From positions 1 through 35,991 of the IMG/VR virus record IMGVR_UViG_3300048583_000345: 35,991 nt of DNA. One strand, given 5' to 3'. Below the pieces are notes generated by a model, which saw nothing but the letters and a program-made list of their open reading frames with translations, made no database searches and had not been told where the DNA came from. The position numbers were made by a program, and so were the translations under genes. This document shows, one piece after another, positions 15,380 through 35,991 of this stretch; the first letter of the stretch is position 1; each line of letters opens with the position of its first letter. Origin of the DNA: a virus.

Positions 15380-18300
15380 CTAAATATCCTCAGTAATAAT
15401 GTTTTTCTCATCTAACAGGTCAGATTCTTCCTTTTTTTGCTCAAATATCAGAAGTTTCTTTTTTTTATTCTCAGAATAGCTTCTCTGTACCTCTAATGCG
15501 AAAGGTTTTGGCTTGTTTTTATAGGTCAAAGAATTATCAGATTTTAAATCCTTCATTCCCTTTGAACCTAGCGGATCTCTACCAAAGGCCGAGTCATCTG
15601 TTTTAAATATGGATGCTTTTTCTTTGGGCCTTCCTATTACTGCAGGATCATTTTCATCATACCCGTCAGGTACATCTAACTTTTCATTCCCTTTTGCATT
15701 AGCATTGTATATATTAGCCAGGTCGTGAGGAGTACCGTATGACTCTCCAGAAATAGCAGGATCATTTCCTTCGTTTTCTATTTGGTTATATTGGAAAGTT
15801 CTCTTCACATCCTCTATTATCAAGTCTCTTTCAGTGTTAAGCTGATCCTCACTCATCTGGAATATCTTATCAGCTATCCAATCACTTGACATTAATTTCT
15901 TGTCGAGAATATTTGATGCCAGGTCTACCTTTTCTTTTAAAAGAGCTATCTTTTCCTGCTCATATATTATAGATGGGTTGTTTAAACCTAGTTTGAAGTT
16001 TACTAAATCCGCATCCTCATACCCTTGAACGTACAGGTGAATTAAGGCTATCTTCTCTAACTCGCTAAGAACTATCCTCTGTATTCGTTCTATAGTTCTA
16101 CTGAATCTAACGTCCAGAGCGGATATTGTCGAGTTCTTTATAATAATCCCAGACTCCGTTAAAAAGTTATGGTTTTCATTCTTGTCCCAAACTTCCATAT
16201 TGTAGGTGTCTGAGGTGTAATCTAGGAACTCTACGCTAACAACTTTATGGTTGTAGGTTTTTCCTACATAGTTGGATATATCTTCTCCAGCTATTTCTGT
16301 AAATAGTTTATAGGCTTTTCTTCCTACTTTATATTTTGTTTTAAATTCCTTCACTGACTCACACCCTGACATAAGTTGAAGTAAATATTCTTTTCTGACA
16401 TATTTGTGTCTGCCTTTTGTAAATCCTGTGTATTCATTGAAAAACTCTTCAATGTCCCAACCAGAGCTATTTAAAGCATCTTCTAACACATGAATAGAAT
16501 ATCCCATGGCCTTAGCTAAAGTCCTAGGTTTATTTATTTCTGATATACTTCCCTTATACCCTTTAATAAAATCTATTATAGAATCTACGCTAGGTCTTTC
16601 TACCCACACAATACTTTTTTCTCTATGAAGATCTAATCTAACCCCGTTAAATTTATCTTTATAAGCTTGCTTTAATGCCTCTCCGTACTTTTTATAAGTA
16701 GATTTTCCTATATTTCTAAGCTTTTCTCTAGTTTCTTCTGTTACTCGATTCTTCATAAAAGAAGAAATTTCTTCAAAAGATTTAGATTGCCAGTAATTTT
16801 TTAATCTATTTTTAGCTTCTGGATCTTTTTCCACTTGCCTTTCCATATTAAGCTTACCTATCTTAGAAGCTTTGGTTTTATATTCTGCAGTATTTTTTGT
16901 ATTCTTAGCTTTTTCTTTAGCTTCTTTTGACCATATACCGTTGTTTGCATTTTTCACATGAATGTCAGAATGCTCTCTATATGTACATCTTTGCAAGTTT
17001 TCTGGATGGTTATTATTCCTATTAAAATCTTTATGATGTACAACAATCATAGAATCTCTTTTGAATTTTCCATTTTCATCAAATCCATTCTTTTCTATAG
17101 TGCCATTTATCCACTCATCTATCATTTTATGAGTAGGTTGCCAAATCCCTGTATTTGGTTGGTAAACATGTTCATATGGATTTTGTTGGTTTCTTATTTT
17201 CCTGTGCTCCCTGTAGACAGCTTGCAATGAATCCCCATTCTTTAATTCTTGAGCCTCCACTTTTTCTCCTCCGGTTCTAACAAATCCATGATCTGGGGTG
17301 GTTATTAAACTTTCTCCATTATCCAAAGTAACTTTTACTAATTTAGCATCCAGTCTTGTTTTTTTAGCCAATATTACTTTTCCTGGAATTATTTTGTTAG
17401 ACTTTGCATCATAAGAATATACCCATAAATTAGGATCTTCTTCAGATTCAAATAAATCAGAAATTTCTTTTATAGTCTTTACTTCTCCACTAAGCATAGG
17501 TATTTTAGTATCCGGATGAATACATTTTCCGTTTAGCTCATCTGAGTAGTTTAGGAAAGACTTTGGAACCTTTAATGAACCTAGTAAAAGATCTCTTAAG
17601 AACTCAACGTCCTCTATACCTGCATATTCTAGACCTTTAGCAGTATCTATTTTTGTGGTGTTATCCCCAGGCCTTATAGGAATATAGAAATCCTCAAGCA
17701 TGTTTTGAACATTAAACTTAAGGTTATAGTCTCCAGTATCTTGATCCATATACGGAGTCTTTTTCATGGTAGTCACCGTCTTCTGAATAAAGGCATCTAC
17801 TTCATTTGATGGGATGTTTCCTACGTTTATGTAGAAAATTCTCTTTTCCGGGGCCCTCATAATCCTGTGAAGGAGCATGGCATCCAGCATCAGTGTGTAC
17901 TGTTTAAAGTACTTTCTACCTGGCTCAATGTAACTTCTTCCGAATGGTAGATAGTTAGTATCTGTCAGCAATCTAAAGTGGGCTATCTCATAATTTTCAA
18001 AATACTCTTTAGATTTAGATGACATGGTACCGCCACCTATAGCTACTGGATCGTGAACAAACCTTATATATGATGGGTTATTTATGTCCTGGCCTTCCTC
18101 CCGTATCATATCATACACCGATAGAGGCCTTACCATGTATACTCCGAACTTCTCAGCAATGTCCATCTTTAGAAAAAAATCACCATATTTACACATCGAT
18201 CTTATCCACATGGGAAGATTGAATTCTATGTTCAAAACATCGTAGAACAGGTTATACAGGATTCTTTGTATATTTTCATTAGTACTTCTAATGGTTAGGA

Positions 18301-18625
18301 CTTCTCCGGTATCTCCCTTTAAAGTAGCCTCTTCACAAACTATATCTAAAACAGATGCTATTATACCGTCAGTATCCATGGCCTCATAATCTGCATAAAG
18401 CTGCAGTCTTAGAGTCTGGTAATTCATTGTTGGGTTAAACTGCATTCTCTGCCCTGCTTTATGTAGCCGGGTGAATCTGTCTACTAGGGAAGAGGTCTGA
18501 AGTTGGCCAAAACTCTGGATTCTCTCTACATCCATCACCCTCAATTGTTTTCCACCCACATTCCTAACTACAACGTCAGTAGAGAATAATCTTTTAAGCC
18601 TTGGAAAAAGTGAACGATCTAACAT
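15380..18625 (-). CDS. gp20: Portal vertex protein (gp20-type) precursor containing an intein
   Basis: The portal dodecamer nucleates head assembly and is the DNA-packaging channel. The 1081-residue precursor splits into an N-extein (1-367), an intein (368-831) and a C-extein (832-1081). The spliced product would be 617 residues (T4 gp20: 524). Portal signatures include YADYEAMDTDGIIASVLDIV near 77-96, LPFGRSYIEPGRKYFKQY, HRIMRAPEKRIFYINVGNIP and LGSLKVPKSFLNY. After the junction come STISALDVRFSRTIERIQR, matching T4's L-x-x-E-D-I-R-F-S-R-x-I-x-R-x-Q. The intein splits the conserved 'L-N-G-K|S-T-I-S' loop just before this motif. The C-terminal 100 residues are charged and probably disordered. 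It follows gp17 and a free-standing homing endonuclease gene. The ATG at 18625 has an A/T-rich leader with no Shine-Dalgarno. Confidence 0.93.
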   Translation of the reverse strand: MLDRSLFPRLKRLFSTDVVVRNVGGKQLRVMDVERIQSFGQLQTSSLVDRFTRLHKAGQRMQFNPTMNYQTLRLQLYADYEAMDTDGIIASVLDIVCEEATLKGDTGEVLTIRSTNENIQRILYNLFYDVLNIEFNLPMWIRSMCKYGDFFLKMDIAEKFGVYMVRPLSVYDMIREEGQDINNPSYIRFVHDPVAIGGGTMSSKSKEYFENYEIAHFRLLTDTNYLPFGRSYIEPGRKYFKQYTLMLDAMLLHRIMRAPEKRIFYINVGNIPSNEVDAFIQKTVTTMKKTPYMDQDTGDYNLKFNVQNMLEDFYIPIRPGDNTTKIDTAKGLEYAGIEDVEFLRDLLLGSLKVPKSFLNYSDELNGKCIHPDTKIPMLSGEVKTIKEISDLFESEEDPNLWVYSYDAKSNKIIPGKVILAKKTRLDAKLVKVTLDNGESLITTPDHGFVRTGGEKVEAQELKNGDSLQAVYREHRKIRNQQNPYEHVYQPNTGIWQPTHKMIDEWINGTIEKNGFDENGKFKRDSMIVVHHKDFNRNNNHPENLQRCTYREHSDIHVKNANNGIWSKEAKEKAKNTKNTAEYKTKASKIGKLNMERQVEKDPEAKNRLKNYWQSKSFEEISSFMKNRVTEETREKLRNIGKSTYKKYGEALKQAYKDKFNGVRLDLHREKSIVWVERPSVDSIIDFIKGYKGSISEINKPRTLAKAMGYSIHVLEDALNSSGWDIEEFFNEYTGFTKGRHKYVRKEYLLQLMSGCESVKEFKTKYKVGRKAYKLFTEIAGEDISNYVGKTYNHKVVSVEFLDYTSDTYNMEVWDKNENHNFLTESGIIIKNSTISALDVRFSRTIERIQRIVLSELEKIALIHLYVQGYEDADLVNFKLGLNNPSIIYEQEKIALLKEKVDLASNILDKKLMSSDWIADKIFQMSEDQLNTERDLIIEDVKRTFQYNQIENEGNDPAISGESYGTPHDLANIYNANAKGNEKLDVPDGYDENDPAVIGRPKEKASIFKTDDSAFGRDPLGSKGMKDLKSDNSLTYKNKPKPFALEVQRSYSENKKKKLLIFEQKKEESDLLDEKNIITEDI
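16133..17524 (-). mobile_element. HNH-endonuclease intein within the portal protein (464 residues)
   Basis: It begins at Cys368 of the precursor (CIHPDTKIPMLSG, block A) and ends ENHNFLTESGIIIKN before Ser832 (blocks F and G). Block B is GESLITTPDHGFV with the T-x-x-H motif. The terminal Asn and the +1 Ser are present, but the usual penultimate His is Lys. An HNH homing endonuclease occupies the middle, with VVHHKDFNRNNNHPENL at intein residues 161-177. A Lys-rich region follows that probably contacts DNA. The block set looks intact, so splicing and mobility are plausible. Insertion at the most conserved portal loop is typical of intein site choice. Confidence 0.9.
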
Positions 18626-19422: not shown

Positions 19423-21003
19423 TTACCTTACTAACCAACTTATATCCTCCATTTGTCCATTTATATTTAATTTGTATGGATTATTTACAGGGGCTGTATT
19501 CTGACTAGGAGCTAAATAAGATGTTTGTTTTCCCATACTGCCAAGAACAGCTCTTTGTAAGTCCACGCCTTTATCTTTATATTGAATTGCACTATCCCTA
19601 AGATACATCCCTATAGCATAAGGAAGGACCAAGTCATCATTATACCCAGTTTGAGCCTGTGCTTTACCATTTTTCCAAACAAATACCTTCATTTCATTTA
19701 TGGTCCGGATAGATCTTATTTTTATGAGTTTTTCCCTCACGTAATTCCTAAATGCTAGTAATACTTCCGGTCTAGTCTTTGTAGAAGTGGTAAAACCTGG
19801 AGTCATTTTAGACATATCGTACTCATAAAATTGAGTCATGTACTGGGTAACATTTAAGGTATCTCCTTTAGGGGAATAGTATATGTTATGGTACCCTATC
19901 TCTAAAACATCGCTCATAGTAGCATGCCCCATTCCTGTGTTTTCCACTATTAAAAGAGCATTATTATACTCTAAAGCGACTCCTACAGCAAACTTAGATA
20001 AATCTTTAGTTTCCATGTCTCCTTTGTACTCAGCTACTTGATCACCTGTAAGTAAATCTATCACTTGCACAGAAGATTTATCAGACCCATCCCCTCTAGA
20101 AGTATCTACGATTACCTCATAACTCCTACCAGCAATAGGATACTCCCATATCCAGTAATCTTTTTGGAATCCCCTCATTTCGAAAGGATCTTCCACATTT
20201 GCAGCATAGTGCTCTAAATCCTCTCCATCGAAATAAGTGTCTCCGGAAGATAGAAAGTCGCAATCACACTCCTGAGAGGCCATTCTTTTACCTAGTTCCT
20301 TATCTTGGTCATCCCTCCATTTTTGATCCCTATTTGGGTGAACATTCCACTTAAGTTTTATAGGGACAAAATTATTGTCTCCCATCTCAGCATCTGTCAT
20401 TATCTGGTGGAATAGACCACCTATTCCGTTAGGAGTAGATAGGATGATAGCCTTTCCTCCTGTTGCCAGTGTTTGCTGTGCAGCACCCCACAATTCTTCT
20501 GCATTTTCTATAAACGCAGCCTCATCTAGTATAAGTACATTAGCAGTATAGCCCCTGGCGCTAGAGGAAGCTCCAGAAGCTGCTTTAATCTTAGATCCAT
20601 TAGATAGTAACAGACTTAGCTTACTATGCTCTATTGAAGCTACTTTTAGCCAAGAGGGCAGTTCATCATAAGCGAATCTTACCTTATCTACAATATTTCT
20701 TGCTTTTTCCTGAGTAGGTGCAAGTGCTAATATGGATTGATCTTTATGAAAAATCATTAACCATAAAGCATATGCAGCGCATAAAGTTGTTATACCCAGC
20801 TGCCTGGACTTTAATATAGCAGTTCTATCATGTTTATTAATAAGGAAAAGGAGTTTTTCCTGGAAAAGGTATGGATTAAAAAGCATCCTGCCGTCAGAAG
20901 TCTGTATGAAGACGTACTTTTTTAAAAAATATATAGGGTCTTGAGCACATTTTACGTACTCCTCCCTCATTATATCTTTTATGGATTTTTGGGCCTCTGA
21001 CAT
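19423..21003 (-). CDS. gp17: Terminase large subunit (gp17-type)
   Basis: This 526-residue DNA-packaging motor protein docks on the portal and combines an ATPase with a headful nuclease. The ATPase has a Walker A variant SRQLGITT (66-73), Walker B VLILDEAAF (156-164) and the coupling motif STPNG (189-193). The RNase H-like nuclease has VIVDTSRGDGSD with Asp300, LIVENTGMG with Glu354, and YNDDLVLPYAIG with Asp466 and Asp467. These are the three acidic clusters expected. Length is close to other T4-like terminases (T4: 610). In T4 the sheath and tube genes 18 and 19 lie between 17 and 20; here only an endonuclease gene does. No small terminase (gp16) gene is recognisable upstream. Confidence 0.95.
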   Translation of the reverse strand: MSEAQKSIKDIMREEYVKCAQDPIYFLKKYVFIQTSDGRMLFNPYLFQEKLLFLINKHDRTAILKSRQLGITTLCAAYALWLMIFHKDQSILALAPTQEKARNIVDKVRFAYDELPSWLKVASIEHSKLSLLLSNGSKIKAASGASSSARGYTANVLILDEAAFIENAEELWGAAQQTLATGGKAIILSTPNGIGGLFHQIMTDAEMGDNNFVPIKLKWNVHPNRDQKWRDDQDKELGKRMASQECDCDFLSSGDTYFDGEDLEHYAANVEDPFEMRGFQKDYWIWEYPIAGRSYEVIVDTSRGDGSDKSSVQVIDLLTGDQVAEYKGDMETKDLSKFAVGVALEYNNALLIVENTGMGHATMSDVLEIGYHNIYYSPKGDTLNVTQYMTQFYEYDMSKMTPGFTTSTKTRPEVLLAFRNYVREKLIKIRSIRTINEMKVFVWKNGKAQAQTGYNDDLVLPYAIGMYLRDSAIQYKDKGVDLQRAVLGSMGKQTSYLAPSQNTAPVNNPYKLNINGQMEDISWLVR

Positions 21004-25451: not shown

Positions 25452-26392
25452 TATAACGACATTTTAAGTTTTAATAATTTATCCGGAGTTAGTTCCGGAG
25501 TGCTTTGTATATTGTTTAAAAAGGACTTAAACCCCATTTCTGAAGCATCTTTTTCTTCTGTGCTAACTAAATATACCCTCTTTCCCATAGCCATAAGCGT
25601 AGAACAGTGCTTTAGAGCCATTTTTAAAGCATCATTGTCCAGGGCGATGTATATTTTTCTTATCTTAGACTCTATAAGTTTTTTCATCAATCTTGGAGTT
25701 ATTGATTTTCCAAGTAAAGGTACTACATTTCTCTTTATAGCAAACATGTCAAACACCCCTTCACATAGGACTATGGGCACCTCCCAATTAACATACATTT
25801 CAAAAGGTATTATATCTCTAGATATCTCTGGGAATTTATACTTTAACTTAGTTTCCGGGTCAAATGATCTACCTACAAAAAAATTTATATTTCCTGTAGT
25901 GTCATAGGATGGTACTATAATCCTTTCAGCATACCTACCCTCTTCACAAAAACCTATCTGGTACTTAATAATGTCCTCCCTATTAACTCTTCTTTTTTTC
26001 AAGTATAAGAGAGCGTGTTTTGCCATTATATCAGTAGGCTTTACATCTAGCAAAAACTTATATTCATTAGGTAAATCTCCTTCAAAAGAGGTGTTGTCAG
26101 GAGTATCATAATCTCCTTTTACAATTATACTTCCTAGACTTTGGAATGCATGCTTGGGAGCATCAATTTTTCTAAAAAGACTTCTTATTGTCAGACCTCT
26201 CTCGGAGCACACCCAACAGGCCCATTTATTATGGCCCTCACTATCAGTGACTACGTCTACCTCAAGTTTTTTCTTATTTTTATTTAGGGATGGACACCCT
26301 GGAAATGGGCAAAAATACTTCCTATTCGTCTTTGTAGCTTTTTCTCCCTTACCTAAGACTTGGTCAAGCAGTCCCGATAGAATGTTCTCCAT
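25451..26392 (-). CDS. gp61: DNA primase (gp61-like, Zn-finger plus Toprim)
   Basis: This 313-residue primase makes RNA primers for lagging-strand synthesis with a replicative helicase. A zinc-binding domain at 24-66 has Cys28, Cys33, Cys59 and Cys62 (FCPFPGC, then WACWVCSERG). The Toprim domain has PIVLCEGVFD (Glu211) and YIALDNDAL (Asp252, Asp254). A preceding helix carries YLKKRRVNREDIIKYQIGF and RIIVPSYD, typical of DnaG/gp61 proteins. T4 gp61 is 342 residues. Its first 29 nt overlap the upstream SegE-like gene. No helicase gene is in the window. Confidence 0.9.
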   Translation of the reverse strand: MENILSGLLDQVLGKGEKATKTNRKYFCPFPGCPSLNKNKKKLEVDVVTDSEGHNKWACWVCSERGLTIRSLFRKIDAPKHAFQSLGSIIVKGDYDTPDNTSFEGDLPNEYKFLLDVKPTDIMAKHALLYLKKRRVNREDIIKYQIGFCEEGRYAERIIVPSYDTTGNINFFVGRSFDPETKLKYKFPEISRDIIPFEMYVNWEVPIVLCEGVFDMFAIKRNVVPLLGKSITPRLMKKLIESKIRKIYIALDNDALKMALKHCSTLMAMGKRVYLVSTEEKDASEMGFKSFLNNIQSTPELTPDKLLKLKMSL

Positions 26393-26846
26393 CCTCCAAA
26401 GGTATGAAGCATGTATCTTTTTTCCAAAATTTACCGGAAATATTTTTATTGTAGCAATTATCTGATTCTAAACAACCCTCTAATATTTGATGTCTTATTT
26501 CCTGGTAAGTTACTTCCTTTTTATGCCCACATATGTAGAGTATCTCTCGTACAAATGAATCTTCGCCTAGCTCTTTCACATCAGCTTTTAAAGTAGGTTC
26601 GGAACCATAATATGTCTTCCAATCACTTTCTGCCACTACCTTTTTCTTCTTAGATTTTCTCTTATCTGTCTGTACTAGAAGTTCCTTTTTTGTAAGAGGT
26701 TTGGTCCTTTCTGAGTATAGGTTTTTACGACCCACATAAAACTTCTTATCTGATTTCCTGGTGATTTTATATATGAATCCTATGGCCCATGAAGGGAACA
26801 TTTCAACAGTATCCATAACCAATCCTTGATATATCCAATTAGACAT
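26364..26846 (-). CDS. SegE-like GIY-YIG-related protein
   Basis: This 160-residue protein starts MSNWIYQGLVMDTVEMFPSW. GFIYKITRKSDKKFYVGRKN is a GIY-YIG strand pair (G-F-I-Y and Y-V-G-R). It is followed by a Lys-rich loop, S-D-W-K-T-Y-Y-G-S, the helix DVKELGEDSFVREILYIC, and the ending TYQEIRHQILEGCLESDNCY then N-K-N-I. This is the organisation of the SegE-type GIY-YIG domain common in T4-like phages. It lacks an obvious DNA-binding extension. It overlaps the primase gene by 29 nt and the next upstream gene by 8 nt. That is unusual for a mobile gene and suggests it has been domesticated or stably fixed. Confidence 0.75.
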   Translation of the reverse strand: MSNWIYQGLVMDTVEMFPSWAIGFIYKITRKSDKKFYVGRKNLYSERTKPLTKKELLVQTDKRKSKKKKVVAESDWKTYYGSEPTLKADVKELGEDSFVREILYICGHKKEVTYQEIRHQILEGCLESDNCYNKNISGKFWKKDTCFIPLEDGEHSIGTA

Positions 26847-27138
26847 CTAATCTTATTAAAATGTTTGTATCTGTATCAGGGGATATCGGTAGCGGTTCTG
26901 AGAATTTACCGATTCCTAATAATTCGTTAGCATCATTATATAATCCTACCATTGTAGAATATGGAGTGAAATTTGATCCGGATGCAAATGACAGCATTTT
27001 ATCCTCGCTTCCGGAAGCATAGATAGACGGATTATAGGTATAATTCATCTCATAATCTTTCACTCTGCACTTGATATTCATTTCCATTATCAAGTGTTCG
27101 TTTTTAAAAGATATATTGAAGTTTTCGTATGTTGGCAT
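26839..27138 (-). CDS. Conserved small virion-type protein
   Basis: This 99-residue beta-rich protein begins MPTYENFNISFKNEHLIMEM and ends VGLYNDANELLGIGKFSEPL, then P-I-S-x-D-T-D-T-N-I-L-I-R. The 'V-G-L-Y-N-D-x-N-E-L-L-x-[VI]-G-K' phrase is a conserved feature of small phage proteins that I have seen near structural genes. It is 12 nt after the Pro/Thr-stalk gene and overlaps the SegE-like gene by 8 nt. No catalytic residues stand out. A structural or assembly role is the likeliest. Confidence 0.6.
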   Translation of the reverse strand: MPTYENFNISFKNEHLIMEMNIKCRVKDYEMNYTYNPSIYASGSEDKMLSFASGSNFTPYSTMVGLYNDANELLGIGKFSEPLPISPDTDTNILIRLDV

Positions 27139-27149
27139 TCTTAATTATT

Positions 27150-28010
27150 TTAGCATGCTCCCACATTGGTACAAGAATAAGTAGCTGTTATTGTATCTCC
27201 TGAAACTATGTTACCATTTACTTTTGTAATCTGCAATGTTCCACTTCCAGCTGAAAAATTACTTCCTAAATTCTGAGTTCTGTATAACACAAGTAAATCT
27301 ACATACCCAATAGCAGGGATAGTTAGGCTAGCACTAGATGCTGCAGTCATTGTTATCGGTGCCGTAGCTGTTACTGCACTGGCGCTTATTAGAGCTATTG
27401 AAGCTGATGGATTACTGGATGGTAAGGATGTGCTATAAACCTCTCCTGAAATACATGCAGATGCCTGTCCTATAACTATAGAAGTAATATAGTGGCTTAA
27501 TCTAAGAGTGTACTCTATCACTGATCCTGAAGGACCTGTTAATCTTGAGTATGCTACTCCAGACCCATCATTACAAGTTGAATCACTTCCTCCATAAGCA
27601 GAGTCAAAGTAGATTACAACAGGTGGAGTAGTGCCTGTAGGAGTATTGGTATTAGTTGGAGTAGGTGTAGGCATTAAAGTTCCTGTCGCAGTTACTGTAG
27701 GAGTAGTTGTGGCAGTATATGTGTATGTGGGTGTGGCAGTATTTGTCGGTGTTGGTGTATTTGTAGGCGTTACTGTAGCTGTAGGTGTAGGGCCCGGGAT
27801 GACATAGGACCCTGTATTTGCACAATCTGGATCAGTGTTTACCAATAAAATAGAAACAGCTCCATCAGAAACCCCTAATAGGTCGTACCCGTTGAGCAAT
27901 TCATCCCTTGTTACACCCGAAGCAAGCAGATTTGCCACATCTACTACGTCATAGTACAAGTTAAAAGGCCCTTCGGCAAGTCCTGAGGTTAATCTGATAG
28001 TATAATTCAC
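27150..28010 (-). CDS. Pro/Thr-stalk surface-type protein
   Basis: This 286-residue protein starts with GTG at 28010, since no nearby in-frame ATG exists. Residues 1-73 form a beta-rich domain (MNYTIRLTSGLAEGPFNLYY) ending with Cys63. Residues 74-130 are a Pro/Thr tract, for example PTPTATVTPTNTPTPTNTAT, resembling a mucin-like stalk. Residues 131-286 form a Ser/Thr/Ile-rich beta domain with Cys near the start (DSTCNDGSG), middle and end (SCTNVGAC). No signal peptide or membrane helix is visible, so it is more likely a virion appendage than a secreted protein. It follows the glycosyltransferase cassette directly, which makes it a candidate acceptor (inference). Confidence 0.75.
   Translation of the reverse strand: MNYTIRLTSGLAEGPFNLYYDVVDVANLLASGVTRDELLNGYDLLGVSDGAVSILLVNTDPDCANTGSYVIPGPTPTATVTPTNTPTPTNTATPTYTYTATTTPTVTATGTLMPTPTPTNTNTPTGTTPPVVIYFDSAYGGSDSTCNDGSGVAYSRLTGPSGSVIEYTLRLSHYITSIVIGQASACISGEVYSTSLPSSNPSASIALISASAVTATAPITMTAASSASLTIPAIGYVDLLVLYRTQNLGSNFSAGSGTLQITKVNGNIVSGDTITATYSCTNVGAC
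27621..27791 (-). repeat. Pro/Thr-coding low-complexity tract
   Basis: Fifty-seven codons of Pro/Thr/Ala/Asn repeats in the 286-residue protein. The tract has the same style as the larger tract at 35439-35990, but with more Pro and less strict alternation. Confidence 0.85.
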
Positions 28011-28013
28011 ATC

Positions 28014-28022
28014 TATAAATAT
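28014..28022 (-). promoter_or_regulatory. TATAAATAT-type element 3 nt from a GTG start
   Basis: Exact 9-mer filling the gap after the 766-residue gene and touching its stop codon. Coding-strand order is ATATTTATA, GAT, GTG (28010). The same 3-nt spacing at two other genes supports the GTG as the real start. Confidence 0.5.
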
Positions 28023-30322
28023 TAACTTTCCACCCTTTCTTCCGGTTTATAGTAGTGGTTTCTAGTATGATTTATGGGTGAAGCAAGCAAAACTGCTGCT
28101 TTTATCTCCCCTTTTTTCTGTTTTTGGAACACATAACTCATCCAAGTCTGTTCATAAGGCCTACTCCAGGTGGTTTCCAGGAAAACTTTCTTATTCCCTT
28201 CCTTGCTAAACCATAGGGGCCAGTTACAATAATGAATATCCCCTGTTAAAAACCTACAATCCTCATGCTTACCCATATGCTCAAATTCTGTTTTCGGGGC
28301 ATTTGGATCTAATCCATGAACCGGGAGCGCTGTTTTATCAGGAAAATACTGCTCTCTCACAGATTGAGGAACATTATACCAGGCCCACTGTTCTGTACTA
28401 TCTCCATATATTTCAGAGAAACTAAGCTTAAGATAATCTAGATCATTCTTGTACATTATCCTCAAAGTCTTATCATACAGATTATGGATATAATTAGTGA
28501 ACCCATTCTTACAAACTGTCTTTACTTCTTCAGAATAGAGAAACATATCATCCTCAAAAAATATGTAATAATCATTGTCTGACTTATCAAAATGTTCAGC
28601 ACATAACTGCCTCCCTCCACATATTCCTATATTATCTTGGTGTATTTCTTCAAACCCATACTCCTTGCATAACTCATCATATTCCTCATCTGTTGTCCTA
28701 TCAGTAGAATTGTTGATAAGTATCTTCGAAGGTTTGAGTAAAAAGTTAGGATCTGCTTTTTTAAAAGATTCACACAAATCCCGAAACTGTGATGGGTAAT
28801 TAAAAGTTAAAACATACACAGAGGTCTTTATGTCATTGTAAGATTTCTTGCCATTTAATAAAGCAGCTGGCTTTTCTTTGTACTCTTTTAACTCTTCAAA
28901 AAAGGGCCATACAAGACCATTACCTTCTATATTGAACTTATACGTCAATTCAGGATACAAATGTGATAGTATAGTAAATAAACACTCATCAGCACCCATA
29001 TACCCTTCTGCTAAAGTAGAATTCATTATAGAATAATATAGATTATTCAAGTCATGAATTACTGCCTTTGGGCCTCCAAAAAATCCCCCTCTGCAGACAT
29101 ATTTTACATAATCTGTATTACAGTACCTTGCCAGGGCCTCTCTTTCAAATCCATGTATTTCAGTAGACCCTTCATACGGGTAAGCTAATTGTATAAACTT
29201 ATCCCCTATTTGAGAAACATAGTTTTCAAGATTATCAAAAACTAAATCATGTTGGAAATATCCCTTATGTACAGTGCTAGTAATCCCCCCATCTATCCAG
29301 AAAAAATATTCTGAATTAAATGGATTAAGTATTGCGGAATCATTTACCATGAACATTTTAGTAAACATCATAGGGTTGTAGTACTTCAACCTAGCTTGTG
29401 GGGATTCCTTTAGCCACCCAACTTGATCAGCCCATCCCGGCTTATTTCTAATCTCCTGTATTTTATCAAAGAATGGATTCCATGTTTCGAACTCCTTAAG
29501 CTCTTTGTAGTATATTTTAGTAGGCCTGTCACCTCTTATCTTTAATACCTCTTCTTCCAGGTCTTTAGGTATCCATACACACATCTGACAATCGCTGTCA
29601 ATTAGTTCAAAAAACCTGTCCTTATATTGCTGAAAATCTCTCTTAAAAGAATCATCTAAATCACCCCTCCCAAGATCCCACAATCCTGTAACTATTGTGA
29701 CATTTTTATTCATACTTATTTCGTCTTTTACTTTTATTGATTCAACTTCCACTGGTTTCTTTACAGCCAGATACCATCCTAGTCTTTCATAAATACACTC
29801 TACTTGAAAACCAACCTCTTCTAATAATTTTATAGATGCTGCAGTAAGTGCATCCCATTCAGAATTCATCCAATTATGAAAGCTAACTGCTATTTGATCT
29901 ATCTTATCAAAATCACCTTTATCCAGGCTATTTAGTAAAGGGTATTCCGACCCTTCTATATTTAACTTCAACACGGAGACTTTGTCAATGTGGTACCAGT
30001 TACAGAAAGTCTTCCAGTTAAGCATGGTAAAAGTTTTAGAACTTTCCCAGGAGTTTTCCTGAAATACAGATGATCCTAGATTTTGAAACTCCAAGGCTGT
30101 TTCTCCATTCATAGGTCCTAAAACTCCTTGAAATAATTCAGTACCCGGAGGTGAGTCTTCCTCAAAAGGATCTATACCTATAACTCTTTTTTTGCCTATA
30201 AAAATTCCGGACCAATCCCACCCAAGACATCCAACATCCACAACACACCCATCATGGTCATAGACTCTGCTGTGTACTGAAGAATAATCTTCTCCTTCTA
30301 TTGTCCTTATTAAATTATCCAT
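28022..30322 (-). CDS. Three-domain sugar-modifying enzyme: FkbM-like methyltransferase plus two glycosyltransferases
   Basis: This 766-residue protein appears to fuse three enzymes. Residues 1-190 resemble an FkbM methyltransferase: CVVDVGCLGWDWS (26-38) as SAM motif I, RVIGIDPFEED (46-56) and SVLKLNIEGSEYPLL (116-130). Residues 208-490 resemble the HtrL/YibB (WlaTC) glycosyltransferase family, beginning VTIVTGLWDLGRG and containing EYFFWIDGGI. Residues 500-766 resemble a GT-A glycosyltransferase, with ILINNSTD, NIGICGGRQL and YYIFFEDDMF (586-595), where the acidic EDD would bind metal-nucleotide sugar. No signal peptide is present. It is the last enzyme of the cassette and lies directly before a Pro/Thr-stalk gene. 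O-methylated sugar addition is inferred; domain calls are from motif resemblance. Confidence 0.75.
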   Translation of the reverse strand: MDNLIRTIEGEDYSSVHSRVYDHDGCVVDVGCLGWDWSGIFIGKKRVIGIDPFEEDSPPGTELFQGVLGPMNGETALEFQNLGSSVFQENSWESSKTFTMLNWKTFCNWYHIDKVSVLKLNIEGSEYPLLNSLDKGDFDKIDQIAVSFHNWMNSEWDALTAASIKLLEEVGFQVECIYERLGWYLAVKKPVEVESIKVKDEISMNKNVTIVTGLWDLGRGDLDDSFKRDFQQYKDRFFELIDSDCQMCVWIPKDLEEEVLKIRGDRPTKIYYKELKEFETWNPFFDKIQEIRNKPGWADQVGWLKESPQARLKYYNPMMFTKMFMVNDSAILNPFNSEYFFWIDGGITSTVHKGYFQHDLVFDNLENYVSQIGDKFIQLAYPYEGSTEIHGFEREALARYCNTDYVKYVCRGGFFGGPKAVIHDLNNLYYSIMNSTLAEGYMGADECLFTILSHLYPELTYKFNIEGNGLVWPFFEELKEYKEKPAALLNGKKSYNDIKTSVYVLTFNYPSQFRDLCESFKKADPNFLLKPSKILINNSTDRTTDEEYDELCKEYGFEEIHQDNIGICGGRQLCAEHFDKSDNDYYIFFEDDMFLYSEEVKTVCKNGFTNYIHNLYDKTLRIMYKNDLDYLKLSFSEIYGDSTEQWAWYNVPQSVREQYFPDKTALPVHGLDPNAPKTEFEHMGKHEDCRFLTGDIHYCNWPLWFSKEGNKKVFLETTWSRPYEQTWMSYVFQKQKKGEIKAAVLLASPINHTRNHYYKPEERVES

Positions 30323-30333
30323 ATAAGTAAATC

Positions 30334-31128
30334 CTATTCGTAATATTTTATGACTTCCGCTAATAGTGCCATATTTTTTTTAGTATCATGGAGCAGTCTA
30401 GGACCAACTATGTTAGGGTAGTATGATTCCGAATTTATGAAGTCGCTCAGAAAACAGTCCTCATTTGAAGGTTGCATTGGATCAAATTTTACACTTAACT
30501 TCTTGTAGTTTATTGGCTCTTCATATGCATACTTTCCTATAAACATCTCCTCGGCATACTTGCAGTAATACTGATATTCCGGCATTATGTCTTTTTGAAA
30601 ATGATTATCGTGTACCACTTTTGATTTATTAAAAAAATCAATCATTATATCACCTTTACCGCCAAAAAAATTACCCATAGTCCAAGTATTCTCATGCATA
30701 TTGAAATCACATGAGATAAATTTAGTCATCTCAGCCAATGTATTAAAGTAAGATGGTTTAAAAAAGTGCTCCAAAAATATGAAATCAGCATCTAAAACAT
30801 CGTCCCTACTCACTGTATTTACAAAAATACTATCTGCATCTACAATAAAAATGTAATCATACTCTTTTTCCAGGTACTCTATACACAAAACTTTCATTGT
30901 AAGAGCATGATAAATATTATGAATTGCCGCATCTTTTCTTATAACATTGACAAAATCTAATCCTATTGGATGATCTACATTGGTTATTGCTATTAAATCC
31001 ACATCTTCGGTAGGAAGAAAGTGTTTCTTAGCACTTCTAAACATTATATTAGCAGTTTCATAGTAGTTGCCTATGAAAAAATTATTAGGATTATCGAAGA
31101 AAAGGGAACAAATTAAAGCTACTTTCAT
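30334..31128 (-). CDS. Glycosyltransferase (GT6/GT8-like)
   Basis: This 264-residue protein has a GT-A fold pattern: MKVALICSLFFDN at the N-terminus and DYIFIVDADSIFV (91-103) with the D-x-D metal-binding motif. MGNFFGGKGDIMIDF follows, then a helix and a C-terminal acceptor-site region (LSVKFDPMQPSNEDCF, then LLHDTKK). The arrangement recalls the ABO-type family GT6, with GT8 as an alternative. It has no signal or membrane segment, so it acts in the cytoplasm. The gene sits between the three-domain enzyme (11-nt gap) and another transferase (0-nt gap). Donor sugar and acceptor cannot be told. Confidence 0.75.
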   Translation of the reverse strand: MKVALICSLFFDNPNNFFIGNYYETANIMFRSAKKHFLPTEDVDLIAITNVDHPIGLDFVNVIRKDAAIHNIYHALTMKVLCIEYLEKEYDYIFIVDADSIFVNTVSRDDVLDADFIFLEHFFKPSYFNTLAEMTKFISCDFNMHENTWTMGNFFGGKGDIMIDFFNKSKVVHDNHFQKDIMPEYQYYCKYAEEMFIGKYAYEEPINYKKLSVKFDPMQPSNEDCFLSDFINSESYYPNIVGPRLLHDTKKNMALLAEVIKYYE

Positions 31129-32094
31129 TTAATTAAAATTTAAATCGGCTGCTCTATATTCACTAAAAGCAACCTTATATGTTTTATCTGGAGCTGTATC
31201 TAGAAAGAATTCGAGGAATAAAAATTTCTTTTCTCCAAATATTGGATCAGCCCCTAGAAATTCATTTGTAACAGGGAAATGCATTTTTTCGTTGTTTTCT
31301 TTTTCCAGCTCTCTTTGTACTACGTCAGTAACATCCGTCAATATATCAAAATTAGAGGATGAGTATCCTTCATCAATTTGAAAAGGAGGAGTACCATACA
31401 TAGCTTTTTTCAAGTATATTTTAGACCCTTTAAATTTATCTTGCTCTTTATACCACTCAGGATACACTTCGCTCAGGTATGGGTTAAAAGAGAAATTATA
31501 CCATTGAAAATTTTTAGGGCCCTCTACATAGCTGTTCAACCAGGCCTCATAATCCCACCTACCCCAGATATCCACTTCTCTACATTTTCTCAAATGCTCA
31601 GATTTGGCCCACCAAAAATTTCCCCAGTACCACCCGGATACGCAAGAGGCACCAGCTGTGTCATACTCATCTAACTTCTCTACAGTTTCTCTCCATTTGT
31701 CAATAACGTAGTACTCTAAAAATTCTTTCCAAGCTTGTATGTTATGAATCTTTAAAGTGCTTATTTCTTTAGACACTGAATCGGAGTATTGATTGCTAAC
31801 TCCCTTTGTATGTAAGTATAATATCCTAGCATTGTCAAAAGAATCAGCAGCTTCCTTTACTTTTTTTATACCCAAGTATTCTGCAGTATTTTGTTCAGTA
31901 TACTCTATAGTAGATACACGGTAGTCTTTCATAAAAGATTCAAAGTTCTCCCTTGACTCCTCAGCTAAATTAACTGTTACGTATATCTTATCTGCAGCTT
32001 CATATAACCCTGATTTTATCATTCTTTCCATCTGCCCAGTAATGACTTGTCTCCAGTTATTTACTAGATAACAATGGTAAACTACTATAATCAT
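31129..32094 (-). CDS. Putative glycosyltransferase
   Basis: This 321-residue protein has MIIVVYHCYLVNNWRQVITG at the start and ARILYLHTKGVS at 89-100. An 'L-Y-x-H-T-K-G' motif of this kind is seen in glycosyltransferases encoded near surface-polysaccharide loci. Later come GWYWGNFWWAKSEHLRK (154-170) and RWDYEAWL. It lacks a clear D-x-D. The stop is directly followed by the GT6-like start, so both are co-translated. The call depends on the motif pattern and on its neighbours, which are unmistakable transferases. Confidence 0.6.
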   Translation of the reverse strand: MIIVVYHCYLVNNWRQVITGQMERMIKSGLYEAADKIYVTVNLAEESRENFESFMKDYRVSTIEYTEQNTAEYLGIKKVKEAADSFDNARILYLHTKGVSNQYSDSVSKEISTLKIHNIQAWKEFLEYYVIDKWRETVEKLDEYDTAGASCVSGWYWGNFWWAKSEHLRKCREVDIWGRWDYEAWLNSYVEGPKNFQWYNFSFNPYLSEVYPEWYKEQDKFKGSKIYLKKAMYGTPPFQIDEGYSSSNFDILTDVTDVVQRELEKENNEKMHFPVTNEFLGADPIFGEKKFLFLEFFLDTAPDKTYKVAFSEYRAADLNFN

Positions 32095-32095
32095 T

Positions 32096-33424
32096 TTATG
32101 CTTTTTTTCTTATTACGCTAGTAATGCTCCAATCAGGCCTTGATCTGTAAATTTCAACAGATTCTATATTATTTTCCAGATACTCCATCTCTTCTCCTGT
32201 CATATAAAAAGATGACATTTTTCCAGTAGATTTAAACTCCTCCAGCATATTCATAGTTATGGTTTTAGTAGGATCTCCCCAACCAAATACTGCTTTTTCT
32301 GGATTAACTACCTCTAGACTGGTGTGCAAATCTTCAAGTACATAAATACCTCCTGGGCGTAAAGTTTTAAACAACTTTGCAAAAGTTATTTGCTGATCCC
32401 TCATCCTATGAGACCCATCATCCATAACCACATCTATGTCTGATAAAGTAGAAACTAGGGTATCTAACTGATTTTCATCAGACTGGTCTAAATATTCTAT
32501 TTTTACTCTGGTCAGATCTTTTCCCTCCAACTTATTCATACAGTAATCTGTAGCTATGTCGTACCCTGTTACTTCTGCACTTTTAAAATAATCTCTCCAG
32601 AGAAGAATAGAATCCCCATTATTTACTCCGACCTCAATAAATTTCTTTACTTCTTTGCATAAAGGCTTGAAAAGATCACTATAAACCAAATCAAAATAAT
32701 GATGCTCATAATGTTTATCTGTAGCATAGTAAGGAGCTATATCCAGTAGTTCCAATCCTTCCGGTTTTGGTATATTGAGCATATCGTAGTATGCTAAATC
32801 AAGTGTTCTGTTCTTTACGTTTCCATAAGAAAATGCATGGAATATAAAGTTTTTATGGTGGCTACTTCTATATTCTCTACCATTCAATACTTCTGGTGAT
32901 ATTATTTTAATAAGATCTTCTGCCCTGGGAGTGGACTCCATAAGGACACCAAAACAAGTCTGATCATGCCAAAGCGCTTGAGCGTAATAGCCTTTTATAT
33001 TATCTGGGCCTCCTTCTAACTCATCACATATATCCCACCAGTTCTTAAGATACTCTTTAGTCCATAAAGAGTTCTTCATTAGAAAGACACCTGCATTTAA
33101 CTTACTAGGACCATAATCTTCAGTACAGACAATCTCTCTATAAGGGATTATAAAAGACTCTATATCGTAGCTGAAGTCACAAACCATAGCATCTGCATCC
33201 AGGAACAATACATAATCAGGATTTTCCTTCTCCATGACTTCCAGGATGAACTTTGGTTTGTACCAAGTAGGCGCTCTTCCTTCTATAGCATCGTATATTT
33301 TTTTGGTGTCTGTCTCAAGGTAATAAGTATATCCTTTATCCTCGCAGTATTTCCTATTAACTGCTTCTACATATTTTCCATATCCGACATTCTCTGTCCA
33401 GTATTGTGCTAGTACAATCTTCAT
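32096..33424 (-). CDS. Glycosyltransferase-methyltransferase fusion
   Basis: This 442-residue protein has two domains. Residues 1-220 resemble GT34-type (galactosyl GMA12/MNN10) transferases: TWYKPKFILEVM, DYVLFLDADAMV (70-81) with D-x-D, and LNAGVFLMKNSLW (109-121). Residues 245-440 form a class I SAM-dependent methyltransferase with FIEVGVNNGDSILLW (262-276), VVMDDGSHRMRDQQI (332-346) and LRPGGIYVLEDLH. This resembles the methyltransferases that modify sugars in antibiotic and polysaccharide pathways. One polypeptide would transfer a sugar and methylate a sugar. It is separated by 1 nt from the next gene in the cassette. Confidence 0.75.
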   Translation of the reverse strand: MKIVLAQYWTENVGYGKYVEAVNRKYCEDKGYTYYLETDTKKIYDAIEGRAPTWYKPKFILEVMEKENPDYVLFLDADAMVCDFSYDIESFIIPYREIVCTEDYGPSKLNAGVFLMKNSLWTKEYLKNWWDICDELEGGPDNIKGYYAQALWHDQTCFGVLMESTPRAEDLIKIISPEVLNGREYRSSHHKNFIFHAFSYGNVKNRTLDLAYYDMLNIPKPEGLELLDIAPYYATDKHYEHHYFDLVYSDLFKPLCKEVKKFIEVGVNNGDSILLWRDYFKSAEVTGYDIATDYCMNKLEGKDLTRVKIEYLDQSDENQLDTLVSTLSDIDVVMDDGSHRMRDQQITFAKLFKTLRPGGIYVLEDLHTSLEVVNPEKAVFGWGDPTKTITMNMLEEFKSTGKMSSFYMTGEEMEYLENNIESVEIYRSRPDWSITSVIRKKA

Positions 33425-33435
33425 TATTTTATTTT

Positions 33436-34689
33436 TTAAGGTAGATAACTTTCTATTTTATCGCACCATCCTTTAGAAGTCGAGTAGGGCCATACTACCC
33501 ATTTAGTTGGTTTGGTCTCAGTATGGAAGGATCTCCACACTTTTATATAACCATCCGGATCATTGTACTTAGAATTTATCTCATTAGGATCAGCATCCTG
33601 TCTGAATATGGTCTCACCTTCTGCATTCTCAAACGCTACACACCAAAACTCATAATCCTTTTCAGGCACCTGGTCATACTGAAGATCTATACAATGTTTA
33701 AATATCTTTAAAAAAGATGCCTCGTACTCATCTCTATTCTCTATAACTGGGTTAGGGGCAAAATTGTTATCTATTGTGTACTGCTGTATTCCCCTAGTTC
33801 TAAACTGCAGCCCTGAATACGCCTCATACTCCGATAAAGTCCTCTCCTTACCAAACCCATAAGGGCCAAAATCTATGCTACATGGACATTCTCCATCCAT
33901 TCCAAACAGGATTCTATTTCTCCTATGGCATTCATTATTTTTTTGTACCCATTCTGGATCATCATCCCATTGCTTTTTCCTACCTCTCCTAGTGTACTCA
34001 TGCCACATAACAACTCTGTGTGGATGAAATAGATCATACCCCCAAGTATATGCCCTGGCGGCTATTGATATCTCCTCTCCATGAAAGTAGTAATTCGGAT
34101 CGTGAGGAACTTCTGTACAAAATTCCCCTAAAGTAAAGCAAAAATGAGCAGAATAGAACCTAGCAGGTATTGGTTCTTTTAAACTTTCCCAATTATGTAT
34201 AGTCGTTGGTAGAAAAAATACAGCTCCCTCTGGGATAAACCTATCAAATATCATCCACCATGGCTCTTGTACCCTCTCTGCAGGATCATTTTGTGGGTTA
34301 TAACTAGGAATATATCCGGTAAGAAGAGGCTTCTTATGACCCTTTTTTTGTAACTGTTTTATCATTTTTATCAAAATAGAGTCCCAGTCTTGTACAAACC
34401 TATGATGGGAATCCATTTGAAGAGTATATTTCTCTCCACCGTATTGCTGCTGAACTGAGTTCCTGGCCCAACATACCCCTTTACTATCTAAGTAGTTTAC
34501 ATCCACTATACGAAACCTATCATCACCCTTAAACTCCTCTAAAGTGTCCCAATCATCTTCAGGGGCATGCTGCCAGCATATCCCAAATCTTAGATTTTCA
34601 GGGTACTTTGCTTTATCTATACAATCTTTTAAGGTGGGAAGAAGCTCTGGATCTCTGTAACTAGCTATTTGTAAAAAAATAGTATTCAT
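33436..34689 (-). CDS. GlcNAc-transferase-like enzyme (GT60-type)
   Basis: This 417-residue protein follows the pattern of the 'Glycosyltransferase (GlcNAc)' family. FLQIASYRDPELLPTLKDCI lies at 5-24, DSKGVCWARNSVQQQYGGEK at 68-87, and YTLQMDSHHRFVQDWD at 88-103 (D-S-H acidic/His motif). YYFHGEEISIAARAYTWGYD at 200-219 is followed by F-H-P...V-x-W-H-E-Y. Known GT60 enzymes in eukaryotes attach GlcNAc to hydroxyproline or to Thr in mucin-like proteins. A phage member next to genes encoding Thr/Pro-rich stalks is therefore suggestive. It is the first gene of the cassette, after a 53-nt gap that holds a weak A/T hairpin. Confidence 0.8.
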   Translation of the reverse strand: MNTIFLQIASYRDPELLPTLKDCIDKAKYPENLRFGICWQHAPEDDWDTLEEFKGDDRFRIVDVNYLDSKGVCWARNSVQQQYGGEKYTLQMDSHHRFVQDWDSILIKMIKQLQKKGHKKPLLTGYIPSYNPQNDPAERVQEPWWMIFDRFIPEGAVFFLPTTIHNWESLKEPIPARFYSAHFCFTLGEFCTEVPHDPNYYFHGEEISIAARAYTWGYDLFHPHRVVMWHEYTRRGRKKQWDDDPEWVQKNNECHRRNRILFGMDGECPCSIDFGPYGFGKERTLSEYEAYSGLQFRTRGIQQYTIDNNFAPNPVIENRDEYEASFLKIFKHCIDLQYDQVPEKDYEFWCVAFENAEGETIFRQDADPNEINSKYNDPDGYIKVWRSFHTETKPTKWVVWPYSTSKGWCDKIESYLP

Positions 34690-34742
34690 TTATAAAACAT
34701 TTATTGCAAAACTAATAATTAAAACAATATCTTCAAAATATT

Positions 34743-35150
34743 TTAAGCGTCATTATCGCAATCTGATGGACATCCATCTCCCCATGCTTGACTGTAGGTT
34801 CCGTCCAAAGAATCGCATGCTACAGAGTTTAAAACTGCACATACATATCTTTTATCCCCTAAGGCATCTTCAGGGAATATTGTAGTTACTCTTAATCCAC
34901 CATCACATCCAGAGTAAGAAAATACCGCAGGTCCAGGCCCTACAAACGCCAATACATAACATACACACTCATTTATCTGATTAGGTGAGGGTGTAGGGGT
35001 GGGATAAATAGGTGTAGCACTGGTTTTTGGTGTAATTGATGGGAAAGGTTTAGGGTTTTCACTTTCTAATTTAAGCCTTTTCTTGTACATTATTATTGAT
35101 ATAGTTGCTATAGCAACTAAGCTAATGAATATAATGGTTCCGGTTTCCAT
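34743..35150 (-). CDS. Membrane-anchored Pro/Thr-linker protein with Cys-rich domain
   Basis: This 135-residue protein has an uncleaved-looking membrane helix at 5-21 (TIIFISLVAIATISIIM) followed by YKKRLK. This order would place the N-terminus outside by the positive-inside rule, so topology is ambiguous. Residues 33-57 form a Pro/Ser/Thr linker (TPIYPTPTPSPNQ). Residues 60-135 form a Cys-rich domain with eight Cys, beginning ECVCYVLAFVG and ending GCPSDCDNDA. Its C-x-C-Y start and spaced Cys resemble the terminal domain of the long stalk protein just upstream. A host-envelope-displayed or virion-membrane-interacting role is inferred. It precedes the glycosyltransferase cassette. Confidence 0.65.
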   Translation of the reverse strand: METGTIIFISLVAIATISIIMYKKRLKLESENPKPFPSITPKTSATPIYPTPTPSPNQINECVCYVLAFVGPGPAVFSYSGCDGGLRVTTIFPEDALGDKRYVCAVLNSVACDSLDGTYSQAWGDGCPSDCDNDA

Positions 35151-35163
35151 AAATTTTATTTTA

Positions 35164-35172
35164 TATAAATAT
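35164..35172 (-). promoter_or_regulatory. TATAAATAT-type intergenic element
   Basis: Exact 9-mer in the 27-nt gap after the stalk gene, 13 nt before the ATG at 35150. Confidence 0.5.
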
Positions 35173-35177
35173 GAGCG

Positions 35178-35991
35178 TTATGTATTTGAGTTACATGTTA
35201 TTAAGTCATTTTCTTGAGAACTTCCTCCCATTGGCGCTACTCTATCACCCAGGACTAATGCATACGGGCCCTCTACTGTGTTGTTGCACATACACTCTGT
35301 CCTTGCTCCAGCAGTGGCATATCCCATTACCAAATTTTCCCCAGTATTACAATTTTTGTAATCGTAATATATCGTTCCATAAGTGTCTATATCTGCTTGG
35401 GTTACTGTCAATGTGTACCGATAACAATCACAAATATATGTAGCAGTTGGTGTCAGAGTTTTAGTAGGTGTGGGTGTCAAAGTTTTAGTTGGTGTAGAAG
35501 TATATGTCTTAGTAGGTGTGGGTGTTAAAGTTTTAGTTGGTGTAAACGTCTTAGTAGGTGTTGGCGTTAAAGTTTTAGTAGCAGTGAATGTTTGAGTGGG
35601 TGTAAACGTCTTAGTAGGTGTAGGAGTTAAAGTTTTAGTTGCAGTAAATGTTTGTGTAGGTGTAGGAGTTAAAGTTTTAGTAGATGTTTGAGTTTTAGTA
35701 TTAGTAGGAGTTAAAGTTTTAGTAGCAGTGAATGTTTGAGTATTAGTAGGAGTTAGAGTTTTAGTTGCAGTAAATGTTTGTGTAGGTGTAGGAGTTAAAG
35801 TTTTAGTAGCAGTGAATGTTTGAGTAGGTGTTTGAGTTTGAGTAGATGTTTGAGTTTTAGTATTAGTAGGTGTTAGAGTTTTAGTTGCAGTGAATGTCTG
35901 AGTAGATGTTTGAGTTTTAGTATTAGTAGGTGTTAGAGTTTTAGTGGCAGTGAATGTCTGAGTAGGTGTAGGTGTTAGAGTTTTAGTTGCA
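35178..35991 (-). CDS. Thr-alternating stalk protein with C-terminal Cys domain (5' end outside window)
   Basis: The reading frame runs from the right edge to a stop at 35178 with 270 residues visible; its start lies beyond 35991. The TTG at 35480 is only an internal Leu codon. The visible N-terminal 184 residues are a repeat in which Thr occupies every second position, built on units like [14 protein letters not shown] and [11 protein letters not shown]. Then follows [20 protein letters not shown] and a compact C-terminal domain of about 80 residues with Cys in C-D-C, YKNC, ECMC and ITC contexts. The architecture is a long extended stalk with a small knob. A virion fibre or mucin-like glycoprotein is the best guess (inference). 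Confidence 0.8.
35439..35990 (-). repeat. Thr-x repeat array in the stalk gene
   Basis: 184 codons, half of them Thr (ACT or ACA), in units of 14 to 20 codons. The tract includes an almost exact 60-bp tandem duplication (35841-35900 versus 35901-35960). The array continues past the right edge. Such arrays expand and contract by recombination, so its length probably differs between related phages. Confidence 0.9.

Follow-up and report, generated by a model that had tools for sequence, protein, structure and literature searches.

The window analyzed here comprises 35,991 bases and is the whole IMG/VR virus record IMGVR_UViG_3300048583_000345, from an uncultured phage. It contains a gene for a proline/threonine-rich (Pro/Thr) stalk protein and, close behind it, a cassette of enzyme genes headed by a glycosyltransferase of family GT60. 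Mucin-type O-glycosylation is usually regarded as eukaryotic. It is rather likely that this phage encodes a mucin-type O-glycosylation of its own, directed at stalk proteins of its tail fiber locus. Gene identities, a predicted fold, synteny, adjacency statistics and the site of the module were computed here; we infer the transfer to threonine (Thr), the identity of the sugar, the location of the stalks in the virion of this phage and the benefit. In the open-access literature, no description of a GT60/stalk module in phages, of phage GT60 or of Pro/Thr stalk glycosylation of phages was found. Phage virion glycosylation as such is already known, including papers on other systems, and the authors of the Xanthomonas phage XacN1 already proposed phage-made glycoproteins.

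Stalk genes and enzyme cassette

An open reading frame (ORF) was scored as a stalk when at least 10 Thr and at least 5 proline residues occurred within 30 residues. The genes of the block were found where the initial annotation had placed them, every one on the minus strand:

35178..35990, minus strand: Pro/Thr stalk protein with a small cysteine-containing C-terminal domain, proposed glycan acceptor (phrog_15511, E=1e-12; Thr repeat)
34743..35150, minus strand: short protein whose N-terminus is, by eye, hydrophobic over a stretch and whose Pro/Thr segment is short (translation)
33436..34689, minus strand: GT60 glycosyltransferase, proposed initiating polypeptide N-acetylglucosamine (GlcNAc)-type transferase (PF11397, E=3e-74; phrog_24687, E=1e-179)
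32096..33424, minus strand: fusion of a GT34-like glycosyltransferase and a methyltransferase, proposed to extend and methyl-cap the glycan (PF05637, 3e-12; PF13578 (Methyltransf_24), 1e-5; phrog_21658)
31129..32094, minus strand: cassette protein without family (36% match to a fusion in contig L031)
30334..31128, minus strand: cassette protein, weakly glycosyltransferase-like (phrog_3317 glycosyltransferase, E=0.02 at best)
28022..30322, minus strand: FkbM-like and HtrL_YibB protein with a glycosyltransferase-like C-terminal domain (PF09612, 6e-16; TIGR02192, 6.8e-18, under the curated cut-off)
27150..28010, minus strand: second, smaller Pro/Thr stalk protein at the module end (a stalk by the criterion)
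26839..27138, minus strand: flank marker, small protein resembling C-terminal parts of other tail-locus proteins
26364..26846, minus strand: flank marker, SegE-type GIY-YIG protein (PF19835, 3e-27; phrog_447; 43% identical homolog in Flavobacterium phage immuto)

Within the five-gene block (28022-34689), neighboring genes are 0-11 bp apart, and gaps of 53 and 27 bp lead to the two upstream genes. The contig end truncates the large stalk protein at its N-terminus. In its repeat, 92 of the 95 alternate positions are Thr, which was matched by none of 20,000 shuffles of the repeat, and the description as a Thr-alternating stalk was thus borne out. The initial annotation had counted three Pro/Thr stalk genes. 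Two of them, 35178-35990 and 27150-28010, are stalks, but 34743-35150 is weakly Pro/Thr-rich and was not scored as one. The latter had been described as a membrane-anchored Pro/Thr protein; the hydrophobic stretch is present, but the Pro/Thr part is short, and profile searches of Pfam and PHROGs gave no family. The gene 26839-27138, which had been included in the range of the system, is not a stalk gene; its relatives are the C-terminal part of other tail-locus proteins. One feature of a mucin-type system, a dense Pro/Thr acceptor encoded beside the initiator, is present in the window in the form of a candidate acceptor. The N-terminal part of the stalk was also modelled, but the predicted local distance difference test score (pLDDT) was 39 and the structure was discarded.

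The GT60 enzyme and its predicted fold

The resemblance of the first enzyme to GT60 was confirmed by both profiles listed above, and PF11397 scored 250.9 bits at a cut-off of 21. GT60 enzymes have a GT-A-type fold and a conserved acidic/His motif. The structural comparison suggested by the initial annotation was performed with an AlphaFold model, which was built from 41 phage sequences and reached a pLDDT of 92.8. GT60 is well conserved: within this set, which was picked for similarity, the window enzyme is 64-75% identical to 36 of the 40 other sequences. The top 18 Foldseek matches of the model were all polypeptide N-acetylgalactosamine (GalNAc)-transferases (best E 6e-10). With VIA-align, these enzymes filled ranks 1-29 with Z scores of 19.4-22.7 over 261-287 residues, at 11-14% identity to the model, and the Z score at rank 30 was 16.7. 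The triplet D93-S94-H95 is invariant among the 41 sequences; a triplet of this D-S-H type binds the metal in polypeptide GalNAc-transferases. The fold matches to GT-A enzymes and the invariant triplet correspond to the GT60 features named above.

The likeness is one of fold alone. PDB sequence searches with the GT60 protein, both as a single sequence and as a profile, gave no relevant match, and the profile search of PDB chains returned no polypeptide GalNAc-transferase at E values up to 10. The protein 33436-34689 is GT60 by sequence and has a predicted fold nearest to that of mucin initiators; identity with a GalNAc-transferase is not claimed.

The further cassette enzymes

Five transferase or methyltransferase genes had been annotated. 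Three stand by profile, since 30334-31128 and 31129-32094 gave no family at E<0.01 in Pfam and PHROGs, and NCBIfam yielded none either at E values up to 0.1. In L031, a homolog of 31129-32094 forms a fusion with the GT34 gene, which suggests that this protein is also a cassette enzyme. Both annotated methyltransferase fusions were recovered, one marginally and one below threshold: in 32096-33424, Methyltransf_24 exceeds its cut-off by 0.1 bit (phrog_21658 methyltransferase, 3e-23), and in 28022-30322, FkbM (PF05050) lies slightly below the Pfam cut-off (20.9 versus 22.7 bits). For the C-terminal domain of 28022-30322, a weak match (E=0.002) was obtained with phrog_842, a T-even DNA glucosyltransferase family. 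Putative extension enzymes, a further feature of a mucin-type system, are present by profile (GT34 and HtrL_YibB).

Adjacency of stalk and GT60 genes in other phages

GT60 loci were collected by two scans (the best 80 of 239 relatives, and 43 loci) and were supplemented with loci obtained otherwise. The best 80 loci were kept also in the anchor scan described below and in a GT60 scan of bacterial genomes. The 124 GT60 genes that were first in their cassette and had at least 700 bp upstream were grouped into 83 clusters at 95% identity; loci with shorter upstream regions were dropped, and two clusters with mixed labels were scored as stalk-positive. In 33 of the 83 clusters a stalk ORF ended at most 600 bp upstream of the first GT60 gene. 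Control ORFs from the same loci, which were at least 150 amino acids long and were taken from both strands, so that spurious ORFs are included, had such an upstream stalk in 30 of 872 cases. The expected number was 3.35, and none of 200,000 simulations reached 33. A first version, in which a smaller number of loci was clustered at 85% and the controls came from the same strand only, had given 14/40 versus 16/333. The adjacency of stalk and GT60 genes thus exceeds chance, and it is far above the control in several phage groups.

The stalk-adjacent GT60 genes sit in three GT60 clades, which were delimited after the labels had been seen (12/14, 15/23 and 6/11 clusters, and 0/35 elsewhere). On the GT60 tree, stalk adjacency needs 11 changes, at least eight of them on well-supported branches.

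Some stalk ORFs are very long: that of L040 has 1618 amino acids with 1157 criterion positions, and that of L162 has at least 2095 and is truncated by the locus end. At L062:7293-9931, a GT60 cassette lies right behind three glycine-rich proteins, which by eye resemble fiber tips and are not Pro/Thr stalks.

Conserved gene order and tail fiber site

All seven lineage carriers that were mapped (L004, L006, L008, L009, L010, L012 and L031) share one order: tail-locus genes, stalk, GT60, variable enzymes, HtrL gene, small stalk, a 99-amino-acid gene, and SegE, with a single additional ORF ahead of SegE in L008. The HtrL-type gene is the final enzyme gene in 7/7, and a small stalk gene is found at the place of 27150-28010, also in 7/7. 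The genes between GT60 and HtrL differ among the phages and encode GT34, GT25 and carbamoyltransferase families as well as proteins without family.

The N-terminus of the stalk matches a 216-amino-acid protein of L082 (33-46% identity) that has no Pro/Thr tail. No GT60 was found on this 187-kb contig, and the corresponding interval contains a gene matching tail-protein PHROGs. The stalk of the window lineage is an extension of a tail-locus protein that is tail-less in the GT60-less L082. In phage immuto, a homolog of the stalk N-terminus (30% over 147 residues) precedes genes with the annotation tail fiber and tail spike, and the SegE homolog comes after these; a baseplate wedge gene lies upstream, and no stalk ORF was found within this stretch. 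Because of this tail fiber site in immuto and L082, the stalks are taken as probable parts of the virion.

Another tail fiber locus, L121:4266-10676, contains a PF13640 2-oxoglutarate (2OG)-Fe(II) oxygenase gene that precedes a gene for a 1206-amino-acid protein with GT60 and O-fucosyltransferase (O-FucT) parts; a carbamoyltransferase gene is also present. L121 may represent a hydroxyproline/O-fucose variant.

GT60 and stalk genes in isolated phages

A tblastn search found GT60 in three of 50,697 phage records, i.e., XacN1, CM1 and RAS14. In XacN1 it is ORF334. Matches to a TPTPT-coding pattern were frequent in XacN1 (85; reversed control 4) and RAS14 (36; control 3), and none was found in immuto or Microcystis phage Mel-JY01, which are outside the tblastn GT60 matches. 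In XacN1, 17 ORFs chosen around the TPTPT matches were read and 13 hold an in-frame stalk, including ORF350 and, next to tail sheath genes, ORFs 369, 370 and 372. At least two glycoproteins have been reported for XacN1, and its authors propose that phage enzymes make them; the names of six stalk or neighboring ORFs do not occur in the available main text.

Proposed pathway

Stalk proteins in which every second residue is Thr would be made beside the GT60 enzyme. In the host cytoplasm, on stalks that are nascent or already assembled, this enzyme would attach the first sugar (GlcNAc in characterized GT60 enzymes) to Thr. Extension and methyl-capping of the chain would fall to the GT34-methyltransferase, the HtrL_YibB/FkbM protein and the two family-less proteins, and the glycan would change with the set of middle genes. 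The decorated stalks would be displayed on the adsorption or tail fiber apparatus of the virion, and the benefit could be fibers that are stiff, protease-resistant, receptor-binding or shielding. Thr is the likelier acceptor than hydroxyproline, because a PF13640 oxygenase was found in only 2 of 28 GT60 contigs and not in the window cassette, contigs and window being fragments; the hydroxyproline route was rejected for the window for the same scarcity. A bolder version, in which large aquatic phages in general run a true mucin-type pathway with GT60 starting on every second stalk Thr and with swappable extension, methyl and carbamoyl genes varying the glycan of fast-evolving, mucin-like adsorption fibers, is possible, at somewhat less than even chances. 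If true, the pathway would account for the abundance of Pro/Thr stalk proteins in these phages, would mean that the virus itself encodes a further layer of shielding or host recognition, and would offer compact enzymes to write dense Thr-linked glycans.

Co-occurrence and evidence against the pathway

A conserved 215-amino-acid tail-locus protein without assigned function was used as a GT60-independent anchor and yielded 80 lineage loci. These were pooled with the earlier loci and clustered, and those extending 8 kb or more downstream were counted. The contig-level counts were 6 with GT60 and stalk, 1 with GT60 only, 7 with stalk only and 24 with neither (Fisher P=0.0035); one contig scan in this table gave no match anywhere, while the same family did match in sibling contigs. 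GT60 without a stalk is the rarer case in this lineage (1/12 GT60-positive loci). The co-occurrence that the initial annotation proposed to check is seen in the raw counts, but it was not significant when phylogeny was controlled for: after exclusion of the duplicate contigs L112 and L091 and of loci that reach less than 8 kb beyond the anchor, unless GT60 was known on the contig, four independent pairs remained, which averaged 1.6 in the same direction, 1.0 in the opposite direction and 1.4 without difference.

The initial proposal that the phage makes its own glycosylated stalks is partly supported, namely by the GT60 identity, the fold, the adjacency, the tail fiber site and the glycoproteins reported for XacN1, an isolated GT60 phage rich in such stalks. 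Besides the phylogeny-controlled result, several observations weigh against it. Stalks occur in 7 of 31 GT60-negative lineage clusters (incomplete contigs). In L097, L102 and L105, the stretch from the stalk over SegE to the primase is in view and contains no recognizable enzyme gene, and no GT60 was found on these incomplete contigs of 33-72 kb; stalks therefore do not need an adjacent cassette. The initial annotation had named related phages with stalks but no cassette as counter-evidence, and such relatives were indeed seen, in incomplete contigs only. Conversely, the GT60 carrier L121 has no stalk by the criterion, none of the 35 clusters beyond the three GT60 clades has an upstream stalk, and a same-strand stalk ORF lies directly upstream in just 6 of the best 80 GT60 loci of bacterial genomes. 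A second context also exists, in which one or two GT60 genes, variable enzymes and HtrL occur without a stalk near preQ0-type genes. Two of the five cassette enzymes have no significant family, and the available text on XacN1 does not tie its glycoproteins to the stalk ORFs.

The assumption that stalk and cassette always occur together was abandoned after the L097/L102/L105 result and the phylogeny-controlled test. In L162 and L135, GT60 is present farther off on the contig. Stalk composition was tried as a discriminator and rejected: the chance that a Thr is followed by Thr at position i+2 averaged 0.78 in 27 stalks of GT60-positive loci versus 0.50 in 22 stalks where the locus is GT60-negative, but there is overlap between the two sets and they are non-independent.

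Alternative explanations

The strongest alternative, although unlikely, is that the cassette mainly glycosylates other virion proteins (capsid, tail tube or fiber tips) and that the stalks are flexible linkers sharing the locus. The stalks without a cassette in view would fit this explanation, as would GT60 genes that adjoin glycine-rich or other fiber-like genes without a stalk (L062, L121) and the mycobacteriophages for which PMC12619734 cites a glycosylated capsid and tail tube. The stalk adjacency far over control, which recurs in three GT60 clades, and the extreme Thr density of the stalk weigh against it.

It is improbable that the enzymes instead alter host surface polysaccharide, e.g., for superinfection exclusion, with an incidental location in the variable tail locus. 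The L006 cassette does contain a gene of the GT25 'LPS biosynthesis' family, bacterial genomes hold GT60 relatives, and the HtrL_YibB and FkbM families are linked with bacterial polysaccharide settings. However, the GT60 fold is nearest to polypeptide transferases, no flippase or polymerase was noticed in the gene listings of the lineage and the second context, in which no search aimed at them was made, and characterized GT60 enzymes act on polypeptides according to the available text of the papers cited below.

A hypermodification of phage DNA by these enzymes is slightly more improbable still. It would find its basis in the second context (L190, L197, L200, L202 and L187), where the same core cassette lies beside genes for radical SAM protein, GTP cyclohydrolase I and DNA polymerase B (verified in L190), QueC (L187) and 6-pyruvoyl-tetrahydropterin synthase (L200), and in the weak phrog_842 match of 28022-30322. 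Twelve large, incomplete stalk-context contigs were compared, ten with a stalk at most 600 bp upstream of GT60 and two, L056 and L068, within 2 kb. QueC was found in 0/12 of them, in 8/13 other GT60 contigs, which have no adjacent stalk, and in 4/6 GT60-less relatives; for the thymidylate synthase/hydroxymethylase family the numbers were 1/12, 5/13 and 4/6. Neither family tracks GT60 itself, and both are commoner in the second context. Because of this, DNA modification, which the initial annotation had listed as an alternative, has little support in stalk-type contigs and was lowered for the window-type locus, but it is kept for the second context. Base exchange by the TGT/DpdA family was considered and dropped, as the family was found in 0/31 contigs, including 0/12 of the stalk context (contigs incomplete).

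A chance co-location of two features common in large aquatic phages within a variable region is very improbable, as the 33/83 clusters exceed the controls from the same loci and the order is fixed in 7/7 mapped carriers, despite the abundance of stalk motifs in these genomes (11/12 contigs) and the non-significant phylogeny-controlled test.

Genome setting

The window is T4-like and encodes a major capsid protein (7473-9116), an intein-bearing portal protein (15380-18625) and a terminase (19423-21003). The nearest capsid proteins in the phage collection are those of immuto (54%) and Mel-JY01 (51%), and Bacteroidota are a plausible host. The intein that splits the portal gene contains an HNH motif. 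The SegE-type protein 26364-26846 bears the tag "NAD synthetase" in phrog_447 and in the annotation of its immuto homolog (43%), a label that is probably wrong.

Comparison with known systems

The nearest solved folds are those of the polypeptide GalNAc-transferases, which share the D-S-H triplet that is invariant in the phage GT60 proteins, but no solved member was matched by a sequence profile and the identity is as low as given above.

In the mucin O-glycosylation of Trypanosoma cruzi, the GT60 enzyme TcOGNT1 is likewise the initiator and puts GlcNAc on Thr of mucin-like proteins (available text of PMC9472816). In contrast, the window belongs to a phage, the proposed acceptor is encoded beside the enzyme in an operon-like block, and the putative extension and methyl/carbamoyl genes are variable. 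In the Skp1 prolyl-hydroxylation pathway, the GT60 enzyme Gnt1 puts GlcNAc on hydroxyproline of Skp1, and further transferases follow (available text of PMC6939170). L121, with its paired 2OG-Fe(II) oxygenase and GT60/O-FucT protein, resembles this pathway; in the cassette of the window, itself a fragment, PF13640 was not found.

On a Jiulongibacter sediminis contig of 1.3 Mb (L226:5951-13148), a Pro/Thr protein gene is divergent from GT60, and an HtrL-type gene is present along with one that by eye is carbamoyltransferase-like. With this similar set of parts, the locus is a candidate cellular counterpart or source.

Among phages, XacN1 resembles the window in its GT60 gene, its many Pro/Thr stalk ORFs and the glycoproteins reported in the text available. 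Its GT60 gene, however, adjoins a carbamoyltransferase gene about 6 kb from the DNA polymerase gene, and its stalk genes are scattered. The glycosylated mycobacteriophages also carry glycans on virion proteins, as cited in PMC12619734, but according to the part available the sites are the C-termini of capsid and tail tube subunits, unlike the stalk Thr residues proposed here.

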